Part shown: piece by piece, positions 36,813 through 58,425 of the stretch | How the letters are laid out: every line of letters starts with the position of its first letter | Numbering within the stretch: the first letter of the stretch is position 1 | Assembly: GCA_018287875.1 (NCBI GenBank) | Contig: JAGVVL010000015.1 | Location: 682,001 to 746,000 of the forward strand | Reading direction: 5' to 3' | Length of the DNA stretch: 64,000 bases | Source: Nigrospora sphaerica | Taxonomy: Eukaryota > Ascomycota > Sordariomycetes > Amphisphaeriales > Apiosporaceae | Notes under the pieces: generated by a model | What the model was told of the DNA's origin: nothing | Seen by the model: the letters and a program-made list of their open reading frames with translations, nothing else | The model's database searches: none | Position numbers and translations under genes: made by a program

Positions 36813-38907
36813 TGACGGCGTGCCGAGACGGACTTTCGGCTCCCCTCACCTCATCATTTATCCCCTATCCCCCCCATGCTTCCTTACCACCTACCACATA
36901 CAAGCGGGCGTTCTTTCACACATTCACACACGGCATCCACCGGCGAAAAACGGCGCCCATTTCCTCTTTCAGATCCCTAAGGACGGTGATCGATGTATTA
37001 TGACAAAGGCAGTGTATTATCTGGACGGCGTTGTTTTTGTCACGGCCCTGGAAGGGCAGTTTGCTCCCCCCGAGATTGCACAACTTCTTGTACAACAAAC
37101 AGGGGTACCGGCGCTACTTCTGCTTTTTCCCACTAATTGTTAGCGTACCTGGGCGGTATTTTTAGAGAGCAAGCCTCTTTTCCCACCAGGCACGGGCGGG
37201 TCGGCTTTAGCTTGGGCACCTTTTGAGGCGTTCCTGGCAGCCATCAAAATCGATTTTGTTCCCACCGTAACCTGGAGAAAGGCCAACTGCGCATTCCTGT
37301 GCAAGCGGGATAAAACCTAAGCGCCGCTGTGACCTGAATTGTGAGAATTGTAAGAAAATATGTAAACCTCCTCTTTTTATGCCGCAAAGCTTCGCTAGCT
37401 AGGATGAGGCGCGGACAGGACTGCGGATGTCGCACCTACTTTAGGTAGAGAAGAGGTAGTCGCATGGATTGAAGGAAGTAGCGAAGGGCACAGGCAAGCG
37501 GCTTACAAAGATATCAGCTCGCCTTGGTAACCTCTGCGAACCTCTCTAAATGCACCCTGACTGACTCCTCCACATCTTCTGCGCCTGCACTCCATCACCG
37601 GGGACTATTCGTCGCTCCCCTTGGGATATAAGAGTTTATGCATTGGGCGGCATTTGCTGGCGACTCCCATTCCAAGTCATGACCTTTTGCGTATATTCTG
37701 TTGCGCCCTGGTGGTAGTTCTTTACTTCCAATGGATGGCGGCTGAGGAAGTGGGCAGTTCTCATTAGGTTTGGGCCCCACCGGTGAACGTAAAGCGGCAT
37801 GTTGGCCGGGCCTGAACTGCCCACACATACGCCTCAGGGACGAACGATCATTTCCACCGATTGCGCCTATCGTCCAGCCCGGGCTTCTCATTGTCGCTCG
37901 CTGCTGCCGCGGTGCCGCGGTGCCGCAGTCAACCATTGACGTCAGCCATCGCCAGCCTGCCCGCCTCGCGCCCCGTCGCGGCCGCCGCAATGTCGTCCGT
38001 GCTCGACGCCCGACAGCTGTCCTCCCCTCTCAGCAACCAGAGAAGGCGAAATAGCGCGGCGGCCGTACGCACGAACAACCGCCCTCACAAAACAACCGGC
38101 CCTCCGTCATCACAATAGCCTCGATCTGAACTGCACTGTTGTTTGTGAGTGGGGCATACAGCCGAGCTAGGGCAGAACATGATGGCGCGAAAAGATGCCG
38201 ATTCGATATCCGAAATGACAAATTCATCTGTCGTATGTATACGTCATCTGCATCGATGGGTATGCCCCCCGCCAAAGACACCGCCATGACACGGCAGTCA
38301 ATTAGCATTCTACCTATGGATGGGATCGGGAACACAGCGCCGCCGGCAGGCCCTGTGAACCAATCCAGGCACGTGGCCCGCCGTTGGACCGGGCCTCCCC
38401 CCCGCAAACACCAGAGTTTAACACCGGGGGTCGCATTTTACCCACGTGGTCGACACCAAGATCGGCGCAGACGGACAGACGAGAACCTCACCGACAACGC
38501 AGGAAAAAGGCAACCCCGGTCATTGGGCGGGCTACTCGACTGGCGGCGACTCGGGGCAGATGCGCGAGCTTTTGTGACTACCGTCTTCCCCTCTCCACGC
38601 CTGTGCAAGCCCACAAAACCAGCCTCTTAGCGCCCGAGACCCCGCGAAGTTGCTGGGGTGCCCCCAAGAAGGCAATTCGTAGTGGCCCATCTACTCGGAC
38701 AATGACGGACTCAAACTGCGATGTTGACCGACCGATACCCGAGCAGGTCAGCGACACTTTAGCTTACGACGAGAGCTTGGAGTGCAGCCGGTACACGGAT
38801 CTCTATAAGTTGCAAGGTGAATTGCCTGTCCCCGGCCCCAAGTCCATCTCCTGTGCGAGTATAAGCGCACGGGAGCATCTTCACGTGCCGTCATTAACTC
38901 GTCCATC
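36813..38907. other. Gene-free spacer with TATA-like element before the GH42 gene
   Basis: A 2.1 kb spacer. A TATAAG element at 38804-38809 lies 99 bases ahead of the GH42 start codon. The rest holds only short frames. Confidence 0.45.
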
Positions 38908-41124
38908 ATGAGGATGCTCCAGGCTCTCCACACGGCTCTCCACACGGCGACACTCTTGGGCCAGAGTGTCCTGAGTGCCGCAAACCACCAACCCGCTCAG
39001 GCGAATGCCATCAATGCTGGCCCCTCGCTGGACCGTTGGCCAAGCGGCCTTCACCTGGCCGTCGACTACTACCCGGCACAATGGCCCGAGTCCATGTGGG
39101 AGCCCGACCTGGCCCGCATGCGCGACGCCAACATCTCATACATACGCGTAAACGAGTTCGACTGGACCATTCTTGAACCCTCTGAGGGCGAGTATAACTT
39201 CACGCTGCTTGACAAGACCGTCGAGCTCATTGGAAAGCATGGCATGAAGGCCATCATCGGCACGCCGACGGCGACGCCGCCCAACTGGGTCATGGAGAAG
39301 TACGACGTCGGCTTTGTGGACGTCACCAACACCACGCTGCAGTTTGGGTCGCGCCGCCACTATAGCTTCTCGTCCTTCGACTACCGCCGCCTCAGCCAGG
39401 GTATCACGACCAAGCTGGCGCAGCGCTACGGCAACAACTCGAACGTCGTTGCCTGGCAGCTGGACAACGAGTTCGGCTGCCACGCGACCACGGTCAGCTA
39501 CGACCACAACGCCGCCAAACGATTCCGCACCTGGCTCGAGAAGAAGTACGGCACCATCGAAAACATGAACACGCTGCAGGGCCGAGTCTTCTGGTCCTCG
39601 CAGTACGTCAGCTTCGAGACGGTACAGCCGCCGTTCCTTGAGGTCTACACCACCAACGAAGCCCACACGCTGGACTGGTACACATTCAGCTCCGACATGG
39701 TCATAGAGTTCGCCAAGGAGCAGACGGACATCCTGCGCCAGTACGCGCCCAGACACGCCGTCACGCACAACTTTATGATGCTCTTCACCGAGTTCGACCA
39801 CTACAAATTTGCGCGCGAGGTTGGCATCGACTTCGCTACGTTTGATCAATACGCCCTGTCGGGGCCTTTCAACTTCAACTGGCTGTCCGAGGATGAGGTG
39901 GCCGACAGCCTGCGACAGGGTCTGCCCGACTACCAGGCCATGCACGACGCCCTGTACCGGAGCGTCGCCGGTGCCGCCTATGGCAAGAACGCTGGACCTT
40001 TTGGCGTCATGGAGATGGAGCCTGGCGTGCTCAACTGGAACCAGTACCGCGTCTCGCCGTTGCAGGGTATGGTCCGGCTCTGGACGCACGAGCTCTTCGC
40101 GGCGGCGGGTGACCTGGTCAACTACTTCCGCTGGCGCCAGGCACCCTTTGCGCAGGAGCAGACGCTCTCGGCCCTCTTCACCTCCGACAACGTCGAGGAC
40201 CAAGGCTTTGTGGAGTCACAGGTCTTCGCCAAAGAGGAGCTGCCACTCCTCCGGGCCGAGCTGAACGGCACCGAGCCGCAGGCCGAAGTGGCGCTGGTCT
40301 TTGACTACACGTCCAATTGGGTGTGGGCCATCGAGCCGTACAGCGGCAATTGGGACCCCAAGTCAGCCGCGTACAAGGACGTGGCGCTGAAGTATACGGA
40401 TCTCGTGTACGGCTTCTACACGGCACTGCGCCGCCTTGGTCTCTCCGTCGATATCATCGATCCATACCAGGCACTTGACGGCTTCCGCATGGTCGTGGTG
40501 CCGAGCATGCCCATCATCCCGGATGTCTTTGACGCCGCGCTCGCCACGTACTCGGGGCCCGTGGTCTTTGGCCCACACACGGGGTCCAAGGACGCAAACT
40601 TCGCGACGGTGCCGGGTCTCAACCCGGGCAGCGGCACGCTGGGCCGCCGCCTGCCGATGCGCGTGTCGCGCGTGGAGACGCCGCCCGCCTTGGCGCGCAG
40701 CGGCGTGACGTACAAAGGCACGCGCTACAACATCACGGCCCGCGAGGAGTGGATCGCGTGCGCGCGCGGCGACGCCACCAGCAAGGCGACGGCCACGTAC
40801 ACGTCGCGCCACCGGCCGGGCCAGCCCGCCGCCTGCGCGCATGACGGCCTGCACTACCTGGCCTTCAACCCGCCCGTAGACCTGCTCATCGCATACCTCG
40901 GCGACGTCGCGGCGGGCGCAGGCATCCACGACCTGACGGGTCGCCCCGCCGACAAGGCGCGCGACCTCGGCGCCGCGCTCCGCCTGCTGCGCCGCGGCCA
41001 CCTGCTCTGGGCCTTCAACTACGGCCTCGAGCCGGTGGCGGCGCCCGCGGTGGCCGGCGAGAGGGTCATTGGCGACGCAGGCGACATTCCGGCTGCCGGC
41101 GTTGTGGTTTGGAGGTTGCCGTGA
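38908..41124 (+). CDS. GH42 beta-galactosidase
   Basis: A single exon of 738 residues. After a short N-terminal stretch (residues 1-30, possibly a weak signal peptide) the GH42 TIM-barrel begins at HLAVDYYPAQWPESMWEPDL. Further family landmarks are RVNEFDWTILEPSEGEY, GTPTATPPNWV and RRHYSFSS. The acid/base Glu188 lies in WQLDNEFGCH, and the nucleophile Glu369 in VMEMEPGVLNW. The trimerisation-type domain follows (DLVNYFRWRQAPFAQEQ, then VALVFDYTSNWVWAIEPYS) and a beta-rich C-terminal domain ends at 41124. Length is slightly above the bacterial norm of about 650-690. Enzymes of this family release galactose from beta-galactosides, in fungi probably plant galactan or galacto-oligosaccharide fragments. 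GH42 is mainly bacterial and patchy in fungi, so acquisition by transfer is possible. It has no sugar transporter or regulator beside it here. Confidence 0.93.
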   Translation: MRMLQALHTALHTATLLGQSVLSAANHQPAQANAINAGPSLDRWPSGLHLAVDYYPAQWPESMWEPDLARMRDANISYIRVNEFDWTILEPSEGEYNFTLLDKTVELIGKHGMKAIIGTPTATPPNWVMEKYDVGFVDVTNTTLQFGSRRHYSFSSFDYRRLSQGITTKLAQRYGNNSNVVAWQLDNEFGCHATTVSYDHNAAKRFRTWLEKKYGTIENMNTLQGRVFWSSQYVSFETVQPPFLEVYTTNEAHTLDWYTFSSDMVIEFAKEQTDILRQYAPRHAVTHNFMMLFTEFDHYKFAREVGIDFATFDQYALSGPFNFNWLSEDEVADSLRQGLPDYQAMHDALYRSVAGAAYGKNAGPFGVMEMEPGVLNWNQYRVSPLQGMVRLWTHELFAAAGDLVNYFRWRQAPFAQEQTLSALFTSDNVEDQGFVESQVFAKEELPLLRAELNGTEPQAEVALVFDYTSNWVWAIEPYSGNWDPKSAAYKDVALKYTDLVYGFYTALRRLGLSVDIIDPYQALDGFRMVVVPSMPIIPDVFDAALATYSGPVVFGPHTGSKDANFATVPGLNPGSGTLGRRLPMRVSRVETPPALARSGVTYKGTRYNITAREEWIACARGDATSKATATYTSRHRPGQPAACAHDGLHYLAFNPPVDLLIAYLGDVAAGAGIHDLTGRPADKARDLGAALRLLRRGHLLWAFNYGLEPVAAPAVAGERVIGDAGDIPAAGVVVWRLP

Positions 41125-44386: not shown

Positions 44387-45977
44387 CTAGCTCTCCTCGT
44401 ACTCGATATCGACGGTACGGGTCTGCAGGATGGCCTTGTCGCTAAGGTTCTGGGCGTGGACGCCGCCGGCCGTCGTGTTGACCTGGTAGCGGGCGGCGGC
44501 GTAGTCGCCGCGGCTCATCTGGGCGAAGTCGGCGAGCTCGTTCGTGTCGTCAAACTGCTCGTAGTAGGCGCCGCGGCCGGCCATGGCCGCGACGGCGTGC
44601 TGGCTGGCCGAGCTCACCGACTTGGAGGCGCCAAGGTAGGGCGTGCGCGTCCGCCGGGCGCCGCCGCCGCCGCGCCGCGCGTTGAGCAGCAGCCGCGGCG
44701 TGAAGTGCTGGAAGAACTTGCGCAACGTCGGCATCGTCCCGCAGATGATTAACAGGTTGACCTCGAGGAAGCTGGAGGGCGCGTGCGGGGGTTAGCGGAA
44801 CGGACGGGGTGGGGAAGAGTAACGCCGGAAAAGAAGGATCACGTGTTCACTCACGCCCAGATGCTGGCGGGGGCGGCATCCCAGGTGATATCCTCTGTCC
44901 CGTGGAGCTTGGGGAGGTCGACGAGCCGGACGACGGACGTCGTGATGGTTCTGGGACGCCCGGGGTTAGCCACAGCGGCCCATGCCGGCGTTTTCGCCCG
45001 GCGGCACCGAAGCCGGCAACTCACAGCGAGGCGACGCCGAAAAACATCATGGCGCTGATCTTCTTGACGCGGCCCAGGTTGAGGTCGTACAGCGTCGGGA
45101 GCGGGATGATGAAGAGGACGACATCGGACACGATGTTGGAGACAGCAATGGCCATGTAGAGGAAGTAGGAGTCGACGCAGCGGCCCGGCCAGGCGTCGGG
45201 ATCCCAGAAGCTCCGGATGGGGTAGCAGCCGAAGAGCTCGAGGGCGGTGAGGACGACGGTGTAGCAGCCGACGAGGCCGCACGTGGCCCAGATGGCAGCC
45301 CGGAAGCACCGGTGCGGCGAGAGCTGGATGTAAAAGGCCAGCAGCGACATCTTGGTGAAGCCGTTGCAGAGGGTCAAGGACGGCCCGGCGATGTAGGCAG
45401 CCTATCGGAACAGGGAAACCGTGGTCAACACAAAACGCCCCCTGTCCTTGCTTTGGAGGGCCCCACGTGAGAGGAAAAAACCAGAAAGAAAAACCCAAAC
45501 TCACAATCATGTTTTTCTTGAACACGTCAAGGGGCATCTCCCAGACATGATGACAAAGGCCGCCGATGGCTATGGACCCTGCATTTCCGGCGTGAGTTTG
45601 GGCTGTCGGGAATTAGGGGTAGATCCATACAGATGACTTACAAGTCTGCGCCGACTGCATGAGAACGGAAAAAAGCCAGGCCATGCATATCAAGACTGTA
45701 AACCCCCCCGAGTCAGTAACGGCGCCGGTCCCCCGAAGCGCGGCTGAGGGACAGAAGCCGACTCACCGTCGTCGAGCTTGAGCCCCGTGGACAGGCGGAT
45801 TTTGGTGTACAGGCGCTGGCCGAGGGTGACCAAGGCTAGCGGGCCCACGAGGCCGAAGATGAGGTAGTGGGCCAGCTTGAAGTGCTGCTGGGGGTTGGTG
45901 AAGTCGACGCGGTAGCCGGCGGGCGCTTCGGCGAGGGTCGGCACGCCGTTGACGACGGGGTAGCCGCTTTCATTCAT
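44387..45977 (-). CDS. PTH11/rhodopsin-domain integral membrane protein, six exons
   Basis: Exons complement(44387-44771, 44855-44950, 45025-45401, 45505-45578, 45642-45695, 45767-45977) join with five GT-AG introns to 398 residues, all phases consistent. The N-terminus is extracellular (MNESGYPVVNGVPTLAEAP), then TM1 (YLIFGLVGPLALVTLGQRLY). The spliced LDDVLICMAWLFSVLMQ block is TM2 with the family Asp pair. A short Trp/His loop (GLCHHVWEMPLDVFKKN) follows, then AAYIAGPSLTLCNGFTKMSLLAFYIQL. Next are CYPIRSFWDPDAWPGRC, IPLPTLYDLNLGRVKKISAM and WDAAPASIWAFLEVNLLIICGTMPTLRKFF. The cytosolic tail is Gly/Arg-rich and ends with a Tyr/acidic segment. Like the gene at 2.3 kb it belongs to the rhodopsin-domain family, but it is more intron-rich. 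Whether it is co-regulated with the UstYa locus 2.6 kb upstream is unknown. Confidence 0.9.
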
Positions 45978-48618: not shown

Positions 48619-49793
48619 TCACAGGTTAAAGTCCTCGTCGGGGTGGGCGCCGCCGGCGTGGTTGGGGTTGGGGACGCCGGGCAGGTAGTGGGCGTAGTAC
48701 TGATCGGGGGCGGGCAGCTCCGTGTAGCGGCGGCCGGGCTTCTTGCGCATGGTGGCGACGTACTTGTCCATGTCGAGCGTGTGGTCGCGGCGCCAGGCGC
48801 TGAGCCCGTCGAAGTCGACGCACTGCCGGTTCACGCTCATGTCCGGGAACGGGTACGGCTGCGTCTCGACCCAGTGCATCGTGATGAGGTTCGTGTTGCC
48901 GCTGCACTGGATCGCCTGCATCAGGATGTCGACGCAGTGGTTCACGTGCACCGCAAACATGCCCTCGCCGCCCGGGCCTCGCTTTCCGTGCTTGCCATGG
49001 TGAGTCCCGTTGCTGTAGTATTCGGGGTACGCCAGCTGCCGCAGCGAGTTGAGGCAGTGCATCTGGTGGTACACGTCCACTGTGGGAAGGGGGGGGGGCG
49101 AGGGAGAGGTTTCCCGGTTAGTGAGGGGATCGTCGTGCGGAGAAGGAATAAGAGGAGAGGAGATTGAGACGTACAAATCGTGACATACGCATCGTCGCCG
49201 AGCCCCCAGTCTTCGTCCTCGAGCTTGGCGACGGTGGCCGGGTCCTTGCCCATGGCCCGGATCTGGTCCGCCGTCACGGGAAAGTACCGCGTCAACTCGT
49301 ACTCGCTCCAGAGGGCATCCGACTCCGGGTTGGGCATCTGCCGGGCCAGGGAGCCGCCGTCTTTCGAAGGGAACAGCGTTCCGTTGATCATCTTGACCTT
49401 CATGTCGAGATCGATCATGTCGAGGATGGGACCTCGATGCATCAACCCCCGTCAGCCCGTTTGATCCTTTACGTCGGGATGGCAAATGAAAAAAGAAAAA
49501 TAAGAACAATCAATAGCGAACTCACTATAAGTCGAGGCCTGCCGCAACGCGGCATTGAGCCTGAAGTGTGTATTGTAATACCATGTCGCGAACAGGACAC
49601 ACGATATGAGGAAGAAGATGCCGTTGAGGATCGTGCCGATCAAGAGCTTTAGGTTCCTCCTTTGCGCCGACCGGCGCGTAGGTGATGATGGCTCACGGCT
49701 GAGGAAGCCCGCCTCCTCGCTATCGTCCAGATCCGAGGACGACGAGCTTGGTGCCGCAATGGGCTGGTATGGCGTTTTCTCAAATGAAGTCAT
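48619..49793 (-). CDS. UstYa-family (DUF3328) oxidase of a putative RiPP locus
   Basis: Exons complement(48619-49079, 49175-49432, 49526-49793) join to 328 residues; the start ATG is at 49793 (MTSFEKTPYQPIAAPSSSSS). One transmembrane helix (about 49-72, LLIGTILNGIFFLISCVLFA) follows a Ser-rich cytosolic head. The luminal part has both copies of the diagnostic HxxHC motif: HQMHC at 180-184 (DVYHQMHCLN) and HVNHC at 220-224 (FAVHVNHCVD). The typical CSGNTNLITMHW and NRQCVDFDGLSAWRRDH blocks follow. Proteins of this family carry out oxidative cyclisation of core peptides in ustiloxin, phomopsin and asperipin pathways, and other oxidative steps elsewhere, in the secretory pathway. The splice junctions restore TYSPILDMIDL and VTILDVYHQMHC, supporting the introns. 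It is transcribed away from the tandem-repeat secreted protein gene at 50.55 kb, the expected partner. Confidence 0.92.
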
Positions 49794-50553
49794 GTTCAGA
49801 CCTGGAGCATCTTGGAGCCGCGGACGGACATGCACGGACAAGAAGCAGCGCCGGCCGACGGGTTGAAAAAAGAGCAGGTATACATGAGGGAAGCATTCGG
49901 CACCAAGGTTAGCACGATTGATTGCCCCGGAGTGGCATGTCGGGGTCGGATCCTTCGCAGGATTACCGGGATCTCGAATCGTCCATTGCTTACGAAGGAA
50001 TGTGCCCGTCTTCCCTCTTCGGAAGGTGGTCACAAAGGAGCCGCTAGCCCGTCTTGGCTCCTTGGGGGCCATGAGACCATCACAGCGTCGAATGGCGGTT
50101 ATCTGGTCCCTGTCAGCTCAAAGGATCCCATTCCCTGGCGGCCAAAATGGAACTAAGATGGAGCTGATACATCGCCACCGGCCACGATAGGAAGGCTGCA
50201 ACAACCGCCAAGAGCATTACACGGCTTGCGCCTGAGACCTGAGCCGAGTCGGATCCTTAACCAGCCTCCCCGCGTGGTGCACGGTGTTTGTGCTTTGGGT
50301 GGCATTTGCGTACATACGCTCTGAAGGATTAAGCCGTGGTACCGCGTGATGGGTGTTTTCGGTGCCTCTCCGACCGGCTGCCTTCGGTGTTGCGCGGCAA
50401 ATATTCCCGCGTGACAATGGATATAAAGGGCCGGGATATACTGAAGTGGCATGATGTTGAACTGTGGTGCAAGCATCATCTGCTCGTTTTCCCCGACTTT
50501 CTACCCGTGTTTCTGTAACAAGGAAAATAGCCCAGCAACCTCTCTACCACATC
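49794..50553. promoter_or_regulatory. Divergent promoter between UstYa-family and repeat-precursor genes
   Basis: 760 bases separate the two start codons. A TATAAA box at 50422-50427 lies 126 bases upstream of the precursor start. A CCGCGG palindrome at 49818-49823, close to the UstYa start, has the CCG/CGG half-sites that Zn2Cys6 regulators can bind, but this is only suggestive. No other coding sequence is seen. Confidence 0.5.
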
Positions 50554-50991
50554 ATGCGTCTTCAAGCCGTCACTGTCTGCGCCGTTTTGGCCTCGCTCTC
50601 GCAAGGAGCCCCGGTGGTGAGCATAACTTCCAGCCCAAAGGAAGAAGAAACGCTCCGAGCACCCCCTGCTGACGAAACCCATCACGAGAAGGCCAAGCCG
50701 GTGTCCATTTACGAGAACCCCAAGACGGCGACGCTGCCGTATGCCCCCGGCAGCCTGAAGCCCGTCGAGGTCCGCGAGTCCATTTACGAGGACCCCAAAA
50801 TGGCGACGCTGCCGTATGACCCCGGCAGCCTGAAGCCCGTCGAGGTCCGCGAGTCCATCTACGAGGACCCCAAGACGGCGACGCTGCCCTACCGCCCGGG
50901 CTCTCTGAGGGCTGTCGACACCCGGGACTCCATCTACGAGGACCCCAAGACGGCGACGCTTCCCTACGCCCCCGGCACTTTTGACGTCTAG
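50554..50991 (+). CDS. Secreted tandem-repeat protein, candidate RiPP precursor
   Basis: A single exon of 145 residues from the ATG in CATCATGCG. Residues 1-18 (MRLQAVTVCAVLASLSQG) form a signal peptide. A leader of about 30 residues rich in Glu, Pro and Lys follows, then four tandem repeats of 25 residues beginning at 51, 76, 101 and 126. The repeated block is SIYEDPKTATLPY, followed by a variable residue (Ala, Asp, Arg, Ala) and PGS/PGT; the first three copies end in a spacer with Val-Arg-Glu or Thr-Arg-Asp. Each copy has two Tyr. The fourth stops after PGTFDV. Layout (signal peptide plus repeated Tyr-containing cores, divergent from a UstYa gene) matches fungal dikaritin precursors. No Lys-Arg or Arg-Arg Kex2 site is present, which those precursors have. 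The alternative is a repeat-containing secreted effector or wall protein unrelated to the neighbour. Confidence 0.85.
   Translation: MRLQAVTVCAVLASLSQGAPVVSITSSPKEEETLRAPPADETHHEKAKPVSIYENPKTATLPYAPGSLKPVEVRESIYEDPKMATLPYDPGSLKPVEVRESIYEDPKTATLPYRPGSLRAVDTRDSIYEDPKTATLPYAPGTFDV
50704..50988 (+). repeat. 75-bp in-frame tandem repeat, 3.8 copies
   Basis: Units start at 50704, 50779, 50854 and 50929. Units 1 and 2 differ at 4 of 75 positions. Units 3 and 4 share TCCATCTACGAGGACCCC but diverge in the second half, so the array grew in at least two steps. Confidence 0.9.
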
Positions 50992-53900
50992 CCGGCGTGA
51001 CCGCGGTAATGGAAAACTCGGTTTGGGGAGAGAGAAGTTGATACACTTGCATGCGCGGATGCCCTTTTGGACGGGTCGCGATGTTAGCGACGAAGATTCG
51101 ACGTGAATCCCGAGGAAAAAATCGGGTTCAAGTCAAGCTACTTGGCTTCTCAGGTCATTGTCTCAGGGTGTGATGTTGTGAATCGTACGGTTTCCGCAAT
51201 TATTGCTTCTTCGCTGAGGTCGTCCTCGGGTTCGCTAGAGTCGCCGTCCATCTCGCTAAGGCCGTGATCGGTCTGTTCCTCAATCCACGAAGAGTTCCAC
51301 GCCGCGATACATGCTGTATCCCTGTCCGCCAAGCCCTTATTATTTGTATCCAGCGCCGCGCTAACCTGAAGCCAACCCTCTCCGCTTCGACCACCTACAT
51401 CTTCCAGTATCAAGGAGCCTTCAAGGTTCCGTCCTACCCTTAGGAGCCCTGAGGTCCCCAACCTAGCCCACCCAGCACGTAGTACACCATACCAAGACCC
51501 GCCAACAATGCTGCAGCGTCGCAGTAGCGTCATTAGTCGTCATAGCAATTAAGTTTTCTTAAGTTTATACGTCTCCTGAGTGTGCTGCCGCCAAAATGAG
51601 CGGCAACATGTTTTGGCCTCGTAGTTGGACGCTATCGTGCTCAAACCTATTTTCAAGGTCAGTTATAAAACTTGAGGCTGAAGTCCGCATGCGTCGCGTC
51701 TGCTTAGAAGAATTATAGTTTCTCTATAGGTCTGGTAGAGCAGTATGCCATGACTAATTAGGTTCATCAGATCGAATTAGAAGGGCGGCATCCTATTGGT
51801 CAGCTCTTTGCGCAGTCTGTGATATGGAACACTGCGTTGTCGTATGCAACTTCTTTAAGGTGCTGTTGACCCAATACGAGGAGGCGCTTAGCTGCTCGAC
51901 ACTACTCCTTGCTGGGGTGAACTAGGGTATGAATGCCATCCAGGAGTGGCAGTGTCCCGCGTAATAGCCCTGCAATTTCCCTGGTGTGCCCCAAACCATT
52001 CTATTATCTGTTCCAATTGCCTTTAAGAGGCCTGAAAGGATCTTCAATATGCCGGACCTCTCAAGAGCTTCCAAAGCGACCTCCCGTCCGTTAGGCAAAA
52101 CCCCGATCAATATTCAAACGAAGCAGCCATACTCACAGAGGAAGAGGTGGAGACTACCTTCTGCGGCGAGCAAGCGGGCAACGTGGGTAAAGCGGGAAGA
52201 GCGAGAAAGGCGCTAGCCTAGTGTTATGCTGCAATACAAGCCGTTCGGCAGTCCCAGCCGCACAGCTCCTGCTCTATCGTTTGTCTTAATCAAATTGTGT
52301 GTGTTGCAGACAGTGTGTGGCCTGCGGATGCACAAAGCCGGTGAGAGTCTCGTCTCCGGATACCGGTATTCTACTTCTCATAATGTTACATTGCTGCCTG
52401 GCATCATCGTTGGGTACAACAGGCCGAAAAGGAAGATCCGACTGACATGGCCCGGCTCTTCAATGGCGGGGCTGCTGCGTTCGCTCGTCCAACGGCTGTA
52501 TGGCCGCGTCCGCTCTTACGCTAGCTAGCTACCTTCTTGATTAGCAGGCAGCGTAACTATGGCCTGTAAGAATAACCGGCGATACTCGGATTATGGGGTT
52601 TTATATTGTCTCATATCAAATGCCCAAGAGCCTAGTGTGTTGCTCGCTTTAAACATAAACACGCTTTCTAGAAAGCGCCTTCCCAGATCCTCCACGCACG
52701 AGTCGGGGTTTATTTTTAGTAGTTTTATATCCTATCTGTACAGCAACGCATGTACATACGGTCGGGATGTTGTCCGAGAGCCAGTCGCACAACCATAGGC
52801 CGTTCCTTCGCGGGATTTCCACGAACTACTCGCATGGATCCCCAGGCTAGGTACTGTGATCATACCGCCGTATGACGTGGTCAGCTGAAAAGAGTATGCT
52901 TTGCGCAGGGGAATGGTGCATACTCGCACTGGGTGCCGCTGGCGCTGTTGTAGAGCGGCGTGATGCCGTGAGCGCGTACCTACTAAAGCGCCTCAGCCGC
53001 AGCTTATTCTCTTATTCTTCAATATCGTATAAACATTAGTTTTCTAGTTTTCTGGTGAAACCTTTCTCAGGCCAGCTGGACCGGTTTTAGTTAGTATTCT
53101 TATTATCCCAACAGGCCCGGAAAATGCGAATTAAAGCGCGTCTCCACTAGTACTTCAGAATTTCAGACGAGACATCCAGATCTAAGAGTTCGTTACAGGC
53201 TGGTACCATATTCACCATATAAAACACTGCGAATTTAAAGTAAACCACATATCTAGCGCTGTGATCTATATAGCCTGCGCACCAGAGCCAGAGCGATTGC
53301 CGCATTGCAAAGCTTGAGGTCTACATATCTCAGTGCGTAACTGTTTAAATATTTTAACAGGATGTACACACTCTTTAAATACAGACATTCATTTTCTTTC
53401 ACACAACTCGATCATAGTTTTAAAGCCACAGGAGGACCATACGTATAGACCTGTGGATATAGCTCGCGCGACTTTATCAGTCTAGGTACTTGGCTACTTC
53501 GCCCTCAACGCAGCCAACTGTTAGTTCGGCAGCGCTTCCAACATCCTTTTTGTCTACTTCTTTGTTACGGGCCTTAGAATCCAAGCCAAGAAAGGTGGCT
53601 AAGACCCCGCACCAGCCACGAGGGGAATCGGCAAGAAGAGACAATGGGAAGAATCCCTTTGGACCAAGAAGGGAACATTCCCCCCGGCACGCAAAACCCT
53701 CCTCTTCGGGAAAAAGAGACAATAGGTCACGTGCTGGATCCCGGAACCTGGGCGGGAGCCAAAGAGCCGGGCTCCATGGGATCTCGCGAGATCCGCGAGA
53801 TCCAAACCATTAGTGAGGGTATGACTTGGTGTATAACTTAGAAGGATTTCCTACAGGTGGAAAGTTGCGAAGGGAAATTTAACTGAATGAGGGTGTGAAG

Positions 53901-54201
53901 AAGGATTGGCTGTAACTCTTTGGTGGCTTACCCCCTCTTTTCCTCTTGTGATAGATATTTGTCGGACTTGACATCTATCCATTCTTCTACACAAAAGCTA
54001 CTTTGACACAACGGGGTCCAAGGGCCGCAGCACCCACCTCCGGGGTTGTTTGCCTCGCCGCAAGCATGACTGCATTAACACGTGCAGGCCTTTTTCATAC
54101 GCAAAACCGCGTTTGTGTACGACCCTACGTAGGCGCCAGGGAACGGCTTGCCAGCCGCAGCGACGGCGGCCGCCGGAACCGAAGAAGCGCCCGCCGGAGA
54201 A
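50992..54201. other. Gene-free, AT-richer block, possible transposon relics
   Basis: 3.2 kb that is visibly lower in GC than the flanking genes. The minus-strand frame 51150-51533 has a coherent segment (SAALDTNNKGLADRDTACIA, then AWNSSWIEEQ) and an acidic end that gives the impression of a worn mobile-element or repeat-derived protein, but I cannot assign it. At 51922-52110 and 52226-52528 only short frames are seen. No terminal repeats were found by eye. The block separates the candidate RiPP pair from the NmrA/Zn2Cys6 pair. Confidence 0.45.
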
Positions 54202-55500
54202 TCAAGGTTTGCCCTCGAAAACGGCTCGAAGAAAGGCCTCGGCCTCGGTGAACTCAAAGTCGGGAAACAGCCGGTTCATCTCGTCGGACGAGTCCCAGGC
54301 GCCCCGCGCGGTGCTGAGGAGCATGGCGATGGTGACGGCGCGGATCATGGCGGCGGCCTCGGCGCCCGCGAGCGTGTGGTGGCTCCCCTCCATGTTCCAG
54401 GACGACTCGAGACGGCCGGCCTCGAGGTCCTGGGCCGCGAGGCGGTCGACGGCGAAGGGCTGGCCTGTTCTCCCACGCGTCAGCATCACCCGCGCTCTCG
54501 TAGGGGGGGGGGGATGAAAATTAAGAAAGGGGAAGGGCCTCTCACCTCGCACGCGTTGGCCGATCCGCAGAATCTCGGCAAAGGTCAGGCGGTTCCCGCG
54601 CATGCCGCCGACGACGGGCCAGCGGCCCTCGTGGTCGACGGCGCGGGCGACGATGGCGGCGTAGTCGGCCACGGCCGTCAGCGTCAGGACGGCCCTGTCC
54701 TCGTGGCCGGCGAGGACCATGGCGCGCCGGTGCTCGAAGTCGAAGATGCTCTGCAGCAGGCCGAGGTGCTTGTTCGTGCGGTAGGGGAATGCCAGGTAGT
54801 CGAGGAAGAGGCCGGGCTGGAACAGGGTGTACTCCAGAACCTGCGCAAGGGTCAGACCCGGGGGGGGGAAGGGGAGGGGTTTTCGTCTCGTACGTCGCCG
54901 TCGGCGTTGACCTCCTTTAGGTACTCTCGCGTCTTCACCTTGCCCGCCAGCCCCGGCATACCGTCCGTGCCTTTGCTGTGACGTCGTCAGTCGGGGACCC
55001 TAGGAGGGAAAGGGGGCACGGGGCGCGTCCTCACCATGCGTGCTCGCTCGGGGCAAAGCGCTTTACGCCCGCCGCGATGGCCGCATCGATAAGGTTCTTC
55101 TGCGTGGTGCCATCGGGGTCGAAAAGAACCTGGACGAAGGACAGCAGCGTGTGCGTCCCGCTGAGAGCGTCCACTAGGCTTTCCTTGTCGTCATATTTGA
55201 CGGCTTTCCAGCCCACACCCGCGGGGAGGCGCGTATCTGCCGTCTCCTGGTCACGAAAATGTGAGTTTCAATTCGGAAAAGGCGACACCGGAAGCTACAT
55301 GGTTAGTCGAGATCGTTGCTCACAGCTCGGCTTAGGACGGTGATGGTGTGTCTTTTCGTGGCGACGAGAGCGTCAATGACTTCTCTGGCGACCTCTAGGC
55401 ACAAGTGGGTTAACCAGTTTCAGTGACGGCCCATTGCGGGATCGCTGGGCATGGGGATTAACTAACCCCCGGAGCCACCAGCTACTGCGATATTGACCAT
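54202..55500 (-). CDS. NmrA-like/isoflavone-reductase-type NAD(P)-binding protein
   Basis: Six exons, complement(54202-54464, 54546-54840, 54894-54975, 55035-55246, 55324-55394, 55467-55500), give 318 residues with consistent phases. The first intron splits the nucleotide-binding Gly motif: VAGGSG joins to EVAREVIDALVATKRHTITVL. Later blocks are LPAGVGWKAVKYDDKESLVDAL, FAPSEHAC and GLAGKVKTREYLKE. Then come the family motif FQPGLFLDYLAFPY and an atypical C-terminal half ending FTEAEAFLRAVFEGKP. The last intron is 81 nt and frame-neutral. The fold is the atypical short-chain dehydrogenase NmrA/isoflavone-reductase-like group; members either reduce small aromatic substrates or sense the NADP redox state. 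The Gly motif (GGSGEVA) differs from the common GGTGxxG, so coenzyme preference is uncertain. It shares a 650-bp promoter with the Zn2Cys6 regulator. Confidence 0.88.
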
Positions 55501-56150
55501 GTTGAGAGGTATGGATCGATCAAATCGGTGATGCAGAAGACGTTTCGAAGGCGAGCGGAGTATTGGATTGGCAGTGGAATGCGTTGAGAATGATTTACTG
55601 GACATACACAGGCAATATTGCGAAGCCGACGGCCATATTATATAACCGTCCGGCATCTACATGTACGTAGACGTCGATGCTACGGCCGCGGCGGAATGGG
55701 ATTGGAGTCATGAATAAGCTTTATCTAAGGCTATATGCAGTATCAGCTTTTCGGATTAAAAATCAATACGGTATACGAAGGGGAAGACTCTGTAAATGTG
55801 CCTGGTGACGCTTTTACTGCATTCCGACCCGTTGTCCTATTGGACGAGACGAAGCTGGGCGTTGCCGGCTTCCGTTAGCCCGCCAACCCACCGTCCTTTT
55901 CCTCCGCCGCGGCGGAACAAGGACGCTTCCCAACGGGTAACGCGGACGAAGTGGTGCAGTTACGCCCGTATTAACGAAGAGCATCAGGGCGCACAATTGC
56001 TTCACTGTCTTCCATCTCCGCGGAGCAAACGTCAATTGCGCTGTTCCTACAATCAGCTCCTCGGCGAAGTCCTTCCATCCAGACTCCACCCGTCTGCCGT
56101 CTGCCCGCAGCGCCGCCAGCCCGTCTGGGCTGTGGCTCCCCAATCCCGCG
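55501..56150. promoter_or_regulatory. Divergent promoter of NmrA-like and Zn2Cys6 genes
   Basis: 650 bases between divergent start codons, consistent with co-regulation of a target gene and its regulator. No individual site stands out. Confidence 0.4.
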
Positions 56151-58425
56151 ATGCCGGAAGCCGACGCACCCGGTTTGTCCCCCCCTCTGGCGACGGCGGC
56201 GGCGGGGGGAACAGCCGCGCCAGCGCCCAAGCGACGCAAGCTGCGCAAGGGCACGGTGAGCTGCTGGGAGTGCAAGCGGCGCAAGACGCGGTGCACGTAC
56301 GCGTCGTCGACCGCCGCCATCTGCGATGGGTGCCGGAGCCGCCGGACGCCCTGCACCAGCCAGGCCTTTAGCGACGAGCCCGCGCCGGCCGCCGGCCGCA
56401 CCGCCGCCCGCCTCTGCCGCGTCGAGTCGCTCGTCGAGCAGCTGGCGCACCAGCGAGGCGTCGAGGTACCGCCGCCGCCCAGCGCGGAGCCGGTACGTTG
56501 TTGGGTCATGACCGGAGCGCCTCCCCGTGGAGTATAACTGACGAGCGACGGGGGTGGGAAAGGCCGTCCCCGCGGCCCCCGAGGACCCCCAGGCCGCCGC
56601 CGGGGCGACGCCACCTCGTCCCGGCCGGGCGGCGGACGACGACTTGGCGGCGGTCTCGCGGGCTCTCCTGGCCGTGTGGCCGGATGACGACGACATGGAG
56701 CTCATGCTGCGCGTGCCCACCAGCCTGACCATAATGACACACGGGCTTGTGTGCGCGCCGTATGCGCGCGTGGTATCGTCGGCGATGGCGGGCGGCGACG
56801 ACGACGAGAACGACGACGCGGCGTGGTCGCCGCGGCGGCTGCAGCTACAGCCGCGGCCGGCGCCCGGCACGCACCCGGTCCTGATCGCGCGGCGGCTCCT
56901 CCTTCTCGCGGCGCTGCTGCGGGGGGTGCCCGAGGCGGCGGCCGAGGCGCTGCTCGGCGGCGGGCGGCTGCGCGTCGGCTACCGCGCGCACATGGCGCGG
57001 GCCGTCGACGCGGCGCGGCTCGTGACGGCCGACGACGGCCTCGCGGGCGGCTCGCTCGACGGGCTCGAGTGCGTCCTGCTCGAGGCCATGTACCTCAACA
57101 ACGAGGGCCGGCTGCGGCGCGCCTGGCTCGCCAACCGCCGCGCCCTCGCCCTCGCCCAGCTCTGGCGGATGCCGGCGCGCGCGCCGCCCGCCCTCGCGCC
57201 CGAGACGCGCGCCCGCGTCGACCCGGCCTACCTCTGGTTTCGCCTCGTCTGCTCCGACCGCTACCTCTCGCTCATGCTGGGCCTGCCGCAGGGCGCCCCC
57301 GCCGCCGACGCCGCCTTCGCCGCCCCCGCCGCCCTGGCCGCCTGCGGCGCGCCCCTCGAGCGCTTCGAGCGCCTCTACACCGTCGCCTGCGGCCTCGTCA
57401 TCGAGCGCAACCGCGCCGCGCGCACCGACGCCGCCGCCACGCGCCGTGTCGACGCCCTGCTCCGTGACGCCGCCGCCCTCATGCCGCCGGCCTGGTGGTG
57501 CGCCGCCCCCGATGCCGCCGCCCTCGCCGGCCCCGGCGCCCGCCGCGCCTTCGACGAGTCGCTCCGCATCATGGCCCACATGGCGCTGCGGCACATCCTC
57601 GTCCAGCTGCACCTGCCCTACCTGCTGCTGCCGCCGGCGACCCCCGGCGCCCATGACTACAGCCGCATGGTGGCCGTCGACGCCTGCCGCGCCATCGTCG
57701 CCCAGTTCCTCGCCTTCCGCGCCCTCGTGCCCGGCACCGTCTACTGCCGCGGCCTCGACTTCGTGGCCTTTATTGCCAGCACCGTCCTGTGCCTGGCGCA
57801 CATCGAGGCGCACCGCTTGCAGCAAGAGGACGAAGAGGGCGGCGACGACGACGGCCGTTATCTGGGGCCGCCCCGCCTCGCCACCGCCTTCCAGTCCCTC
57901 GCCCACCAGCGGCCCGGCGACCGCGCCCTGCTCGACCGCGCCCTGGCCTGCCTCGACGCCACGGCGGGGACGCGCGACGACGCCATCGCTCGGCGCGCCG
58001 GCGGCATCCTCGGCCCGCTCCTGACCATGGAGGACCGCGCGGCCTGCGGCGGCGCCTGCTACCGCGCCCGCGCTTCCGACGAGGCCCCACCACCGCCGTG
58101 CACCGAGGGGGAGGGGGAGGAGGAGGAGGAGGAGGAGGAGGCGACGCACGACCGGTTGCGCATCGAGATCCCCTACTTCGGGACGGTCCAGGTTGAACGG
58201 CGCCCGTCCGCGCCCGCGCTGTCCGCCGTCGTCTCCGTTCAGCAGCTGGGGGCGCCCGAGGACTGGGAGTCGGCCGGGTTCGGCGGCCTCGGCAGCCACG
58301 CCCACTTCCCCGAACTGTCGTTTGACGACGAGAACGCGTGGGCCTTGCAGGGTGTGGACACGGCCTTGTTCACCAACCTTGCCTACGAACCTGTGGGCCT
58401 CGGCGACAATGAGCTTCGGGTTTGA
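56151..58425 (+). CDS. Zn2Cys6 transcription factor
   Basis: Two exons (56151-56492 and 56563-58425) joined by a 70-nt intron (GTACGT donor, ATAACTGAC branch, GGAAAG acceptor) give 734 residues. The binuclear zinc cluster is complete: Cys38, 41, 48, 58, 61 and 68 in CWECKRRKTRC...CDGCRSRRTPC (spacing 2-6-9-2-6). Basic residues KRRKLRKG precede it. A short coiled-coil-like segment (LCRVESLVEQLAHQ) lies near the exon end. The fungal-specific regulatory domain spans roughly residues 200-480, with the usual YLWFRLVCSDRYLSLMLGLP motif. An acidic Glu run (EGEEEEEEEEEA) occurs near the C-terminus. GC content is extreme, with strong C/G third positions. Position next to the NmrA-like gene suggests that gene as a target, and possibly the UstYa pair farther left, but this is inference. 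Confidence 0.92.

Follow-up and report, generated by a model that had tools for sequence, protein, structure and literature searches.

A UstYa-family gene divergently paired with a secreted-type tandem-repeat ORF as a candidate dikaritin-like RiPP locus of variant kind

A UstYa-family gene and a small tandem-repeat ORF that face away from each other probably constitute a minimal dikaritin-like RiPP locus of a variant kind, in which the repeat protein would most likely serve as the precursor of a cyclic peptide that has not been described. Both genes lie in the window, by which we mean the whole 64-kb stretch of DNA analysed (C7:682001-746000). The outer limits given in the sequence-only reading were exact, with the stop codon of the UstYa gene at 48619 and that of the candidate precursor ending at 50991, and the divergent orientation and the distance of 760 bp between the start codons were confirmed by direct reading (49794..50553). 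This intergenic region contains a TATAAA at 50422-50427 and is probably a promoter shared by the two genes.

The UstYa-family gene (window 49793-48619, minus strand) is described by a splice model with three exons. Exon 1 (49526..49793) encodes the N-terminal tail and a transmembrane helix that is also present in the predicted model of an orthologue, exon 2 (49175..49432) is accompanied by the PF11807 piece C7:731185-731385, and exon 3 (48619..49079, stop codon included) by the piece C7:730781-731092 (E 4.9e-32). Intron 1 ends in GAG at its 3' end, not in CAG or TAG, and its junction is therefore our own choice; the chosen junction restores both the reading frame and the YSP motif conserved in the family. 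The product of the model has 328 residues, and PF11807 (UstYa) covers residues 44-275 of it (profile positions 4-220 of 220, E 1.1e-51). The two HxxHC motifs are HQMHC at residues 180-184 (49054..49068) and HVNHC at residues 220-224 (48934..48948), so that the three-exon enzyme with both motifs proposed earlier was borne out. In an alignment of 43 sequences, which consisted of the focal protein and 42 of its 119 relatives, His180, His183 and Cys184 of the first motif are invariant, and His220, His223 and Cys224 of the second are conserved in at least 90% of the sequences.

The nearest relatives are orthologues from five Apiospora species (for example A. hydei PG997_013022), which are 63-69% identical to the focal protein, and the remaining 37 aligned relatives show 31-60% identity. 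The host probably stands close to the Apiosporaceae. In the predicted model of P0002, one of the Apiospora orthologues (mean pLDDT 85.9), a long N-terminal helix spans 25-72, and the two HxxHC motifs are found on two other helices (172-187 and 208-234). The same arrangement of motifs and helices is reported for the DUF3328 copper enzyme CctR, and the asperipin cyclase AprY, also a DUF3328 copper enzyme, likewise depends on copper and dioxygen (PMC12435403). Sequence comparison of the UstYa protein matched no solved structure at E<=1, and a fold search of the P0002 model against the PDB gave no match at E<=0.001 (18 matches at E<=10). Within its own genome, the closest paralogue among the pieces compared is 34% identical over 216 columns, and therefore no sister locus is usable as an orthologous test.

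The candidate precursor gene (50554..50991, plus strand, stop codon included) is an intronless ORF of 145 codons. Judged by hydropathy (2.48 over 10 residues) and by sites that agree with the -3,-1 rule, the two criteria applied, its N terminus is signal-peptide-like over approximately residues 1-18 (50554..50607), in line with the secreted protein that had been proposed. Tandem Repeats Finder reports a 75-bp period in 3.7 copies at 50703-50977 (score 375), which is the highest score among the 18 tandem-repeat rows in the window. At the protein level the array corresponds to unit 1, SIYENPKTATLPYAPGSLKPVEVRE (50704..50778), unit 2, SIYEDPKMATLPYDPGSLKPVEVRE (50779..50853), unit 3, SIYEDPKTATLPYRPGSLRAVDTRD (50854..50928), and a truncated unit 4, SIYEDPKTATLPYAPGTFDV (50929..50988). 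The length of the ORF and the number of Tyr-containing units thus stood as first described; the uniform size of 25 residues did not, as the fourth unit ends at the stop codon after 20. Each unit contains two invariant Tyr residues (eight in all), and Cys is present in none.

Comparison of the units with each other indicates where the repeat is constrained. Over the first three units pN/pS is lower in the coding frame (0.54) than in any of the other five frames (0.67-1.67). Across the six pairs of units, codons 1-13, which encode SIYEDPKTATLPY, show a pN/pS of 0.10 (6.0 nonsynonymous differences in 178 sites, 18.0 synonymous differences in 56), whereas the spacer shows 1.06. Amino acids vary at two of the 13 positions of the segment and at eight of the 12 positions of the spacer (Fisher 0.013), and besides the two Tyr the segment conserves Lys, Thr, Leu and Pro. 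Considering that the six pairs are mutually dependent and that a shuffle test over any 13-residue window of the repeat gives 0.089, the peptide core is likely, not proven, to lie within SIYEDPKTATLPY; the placement of the core made in the sequence-only reading is upheld in this sense, with modest permutation support. Strings of this core occurred in none of the open-access literature searched.

The pairing of a UstYa gene with a repeat ORF, on which the proposal of a RiPP locus had relied, recurs in the same genome (G000, 51.6 Mb, 33 contigs). The 52 PF11807 matches of this genome were grouped at 12 kb spacing into 25 UstYa loci, and 24 of them were scanned for protein-level tandem repeats (the locus left out is C18:1193453). 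Five of the scanned stretches are only about 5 kb long, and therefore misses in them count less. A signal-like tandem-repeat ORF was found at 10 of the 24 loci, the focal one included, giving 11 ORFs located 0.7-3.5 kb from a UstYa match; in six of the 11 the start is upstream in a different frame, and an intron was therefore assumed. In addition to the focal ORF, the UstYa-linked repeat precursors are those of L013 and L014 (both AGWLY), L018 (PHHKTK), L022 (DADLAYNKPA), L023 (DEYGITMKCDSAYADF), L025 (SYPEEDDKVA), L026 (EDYVGGF), L028 (GGGAWAWSAA), L029 (GGTIY) and L037 (DADLQYFPT). The other 14 scanned loci have no accepted repeat ORF, and adjacency of UstYa and repeat genes is therefore common but not a rule.

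Three candidates were dropped from the count of paired loci: L017 and L031, whose repeats we take from their motifs to be TPR-like and WD40-like, respectively, and the doubtful L021, with three copies of a 12-residue unit. The same two UstYa pieces occur with near-equal scores on opposite strands at C4:107823-108094 and C18:1193453-1193724, which reflects either a genuine duplication of recent date or a copy introduced by assembly at the C4 contig end. All 15 arrays scoring at least 10, which include the TPR-like and WD40-like ones, the doubtful L021 and two arrays from one L018 gene, lie in the 257,640 bp that are at most 5 kb away from a UstYa match, and the 66,220 bp farther out contain none. 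The chance of this placement is 0.032 if arrays fall randomly over the stretches, and the clustering is therefore weak on its own; the stretches had been picked around UstYa genes. Ascomycete strains contain on average 5.25 KEPs (PMC7329392), and compared with this figure the count near UstYa genes looks far above a genome-wide rate, although the criterion differs from the one used in that survey.

Several of these loci have features of their own. In L026 (6091-6282, C5 at approximately 1315.1-1315.3 kb; together with L027), KR stands between the three EDYVGGF units of an ustiloxin/phomopsin-like precursor, and the locus also contains UstYa matches and tyrosinase pieces (C5:1317661-1323877). 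Ustiloxins and phomopsins are reported to have the motif EDYXI (PMC6339444); the L026 unit shares its EDY, and Gly replaces Ile. Of all loci in the genome, this one comes closest to a classical cluster. L012/L013 (C9, approximately 395-406 kb) and L014/L015 (C10, approximately 3523-3531 kb) contain several UstYa matches each, and their AGWLY precursors are closely alike; a dibasic site is kept in five of the seven units of L013 and in one of the six of L014. Alternation of KR and TR in otherwise similar repeats is seen in L018 (8235-9599) and in L013 (5175-5675). The repeats of L022 (3139-3462) and L037 (4265-4675), located on different contigs, start alike with DADLxY, and there is KR in the repeats of L037 and no dibasic site in those of L022.

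Cleavage is the weakest link of the proposed mechanism. Known dikaritin-type precursors are cut at dibasic sites (PMC9769878, PMC7329392), the dikaritin units being separated at KR, RR or KK (PMC9769878). The sequence-only reading did not mention such sites, and the focal precursor has none: KR, RR, KK and RK are absent from all 145 residues, and it was therefore not filed as a classical Kex2-processed precursor. Plausible cut sites are limited to single arginines recurring at the unit ends, VEVR, VEVR and VDTR. Some KEP products are reported to end after a single Arg, in mushroom KEPs expressed in yeast and not in dikaritins (PMC9769878). Yeast Kex2 tolerates P2 residues other than Lys and Arg, Thr among them, in combination with an aliphatic P4, whereas the P2 residues listed there as accepted omit Val, and Asp at P3 is unfavourable (PMC8528282). 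The focal sites have the aliphatic P4; Val at P2 and, in VDTR, Asp at P3 are not ideal. Among the other UstYa-linked precursors the pre-core site is ATR in all units of L013 (seven), L014 (six) and L029 (six). The pre-core position of L018 is occupied by ETR in eight of 11 units and by EKR in two, and the post-core site of L013 is KR in five of seven units and TR in two. Since TR takes the position of KR at L018 and L013, these repeats suggest that single-arginine sites may be processed in this fungus.

Considering these features together, we infer co-expression of the two genes, action of the UstYa protein on the repeat protein, crosslinking and cleavage. The 145-residue protein would enter the ER by means of its signal peptide, and there the membrane-anchored UstYa protein, facing the lumen and probably a dimer with copper bound by its two HxxHC motifs, would oxidise each repeat. 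The likeliest reaction would crosslink the side chain of Y3, of Y13 or perhaps of both Tyr residues of SIYEDPKTATLPY to an adjacent residue. Cleavage after the single arginines could then be carried out in the Golgi by Kex2 or a related protease, and exopeptidases would trim the released pieces. The repeat region is free of dibasic sites in two of the 11 UstYa-linked precursors, the focal one and L022. We tentatively suggest, with more doubt than confidence, that they may represent a branch of UstYa RiPPs in which dibasic sites were lost and cleavage occurs at aliphatic-x-T/V-R, and that the focal product is bicyclic through the two Tyr of SIYEDPKTATLPY.

The main evidence against the pairing is a conserved UstYa enzyme with no visible conserved substrate. 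Searches of a set of 5.8 billion proteins brought up no precursor homologue at E<=10, either with the probe of native length (26 candidates) or with a longer one (155 candidates), and in its own genome the precursor matched only itself. Fast evolution, or small repeat genes left unannotated, would explain this result; alternatively, the conserved UstYa protein could have another substrate. The latter is what would be expected if the repeat ORF encoded a secreted repeat protein that is never cut, such as a wall protein or a small effector, while UstYa acts elsewhere, an explanation to which the missing dibasic site also lends itself. We nevertheless regard it as unlikely, as constraint confined to 13 residues next to a drifting spacer is a poor fit to a structural repeat, and UstYa genes and repeat ORFs are paired repeatedly in this genome.

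It is slightly less likely again that peptides are released but that UstYa hydroxylates, desaturates or halogenates them and no macrocycle is formed, or that they stay linear. Members of the UstYa family are reported to hydroxylate, chlorinate and desaturate (PMC12048977, PMC12435403, PMC10512285), and the Lys, Thr, Leu and Pro residues conserved beside the two Tyr would suit such a role. The two invariant Tyr of each unit speak for a crosslink instead, as does the enrichment of Tyr in repeats that have DUF3328 next to them (65.6% vs 38.2%; PMC7329392). DUF3328 enzymes also occur in polyketide and nonribosomal peptide clusters, for example that of cyclochlorotine (PMC12435403), and the focal UstYa could in principle tailor such a product with the repeat ORF as a bystander. 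This we consider very improbable, and within 64 kb it is mostly excluded: the genome has 84 ketosynthase and 38 NRPS condensation domain matches and none of either is located in C7:682001-746000, so that no recognisable PKS or NRPS cluster can be present there. The preferred reading remains that of a dikaritin-like RiPP locus.

The focal locus contains one UstYa gene, and none of the 59 tyrosinase matches in the genome lies in the 64-kb window. On the precursor side there are an NmrA-like piece (55034-55267, minus strand, PF05368 E 4.8e-9) and, according to its domain match, a Zn2Cys6 domain ORF (55941-56534), which we guess is probably one regulator gene together with the ORF at 56542-58425. 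On the other side, an ORF with a fungal rhodopsin domain match occupies 45021-45401 (minus strand). We count none of these neighbours as part of the focal locus. The sequence directly downstream of the precursor (window 51500-53999) has a lower GC content of 0.40-0.53, compared with more than 0.55 in most of the remainder of the 42-60 kb profiled. Window 38821-41124 is a single-ORF GH42 beta-galactosidase of 767 residues (PF02449 E 6.4e-110); GH42 is a mostly bacterial family, and the origin of this ORF may merit a look.

Three published surveys of such fungal peptides filter candidate precursors by dibasic sites (PMC7329392, PMC9769878) or by 'putative kexin' sites (PMC9632046). If single-arginine precursors are real, the peptide class is larger than reported and part of it is unseen by mining based on KR and RR; a rule free of this filter, combining a UstYa neighbour with a constrained tandem segment, would then recover the rest. 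Characterisation of the DUF3328 copper enzymes dates only from 2025 (PMC12435403), and a new core with two Tyr would therefore be a useful test substrate. A genome with 25 UstYa loci, at least 10 of them paired with repeat ORFs, offers a rich search ground.

The likeness to dikaritin pathways claimed at the outset holds in part. On the one hand, the focal pair has in common with the dikaritins (ustiloxin, phomopsin, asperipin-2a and victorin) a UstYa enzyme with two HxxHC motifs, a precursor with a signal-like N terminus and Tyr-containing tandem repeats, and adjoining genes. On the other hand, it differs from them, and from the pathways cited in the sequence-only reading, in having no dibasic sites, and further in having no tyrosinase match in the window and no EDYXI core motif; its unit is 25 residues long with a constrained segment of 13. 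The ustiloxin/phomopsin subtype combines an EDYXI core with a clustered tyrosinase, whereas the focal units have SIYEDP and TATLPY instead. The core of asperipin is FYYTGY, and loci of the asperipin type carry a transporter near the precursor. The asperipin-2a locus (AprA/AprY) has one UstYa gene (PMC7329392), and it resembles the focal locus in this respect and in that each core contains at least two aromatic residues. A reductase near the precursor is reported for the asperipin type (PMC12048977), and processing of asperipin is credited to KEX2 at dibasic sites of the precursor (PMC9769878), sites that the focal precursor lacks. KEPs are defined by at least three repeats of at least eight residues, with KR, KK, RK or RR between them (PMC7329392, Methods), and DUF3328 genes are most frequent immediately beside KEP genes (PMC7329392). 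The focal precursor shares with KEPs the signal-like start and at least three tandem repeats of at least eight residues and departs from them in the dibasic spacing; it is therefore regarded as a dikaritin-like variant and not as a member of the KEP class.
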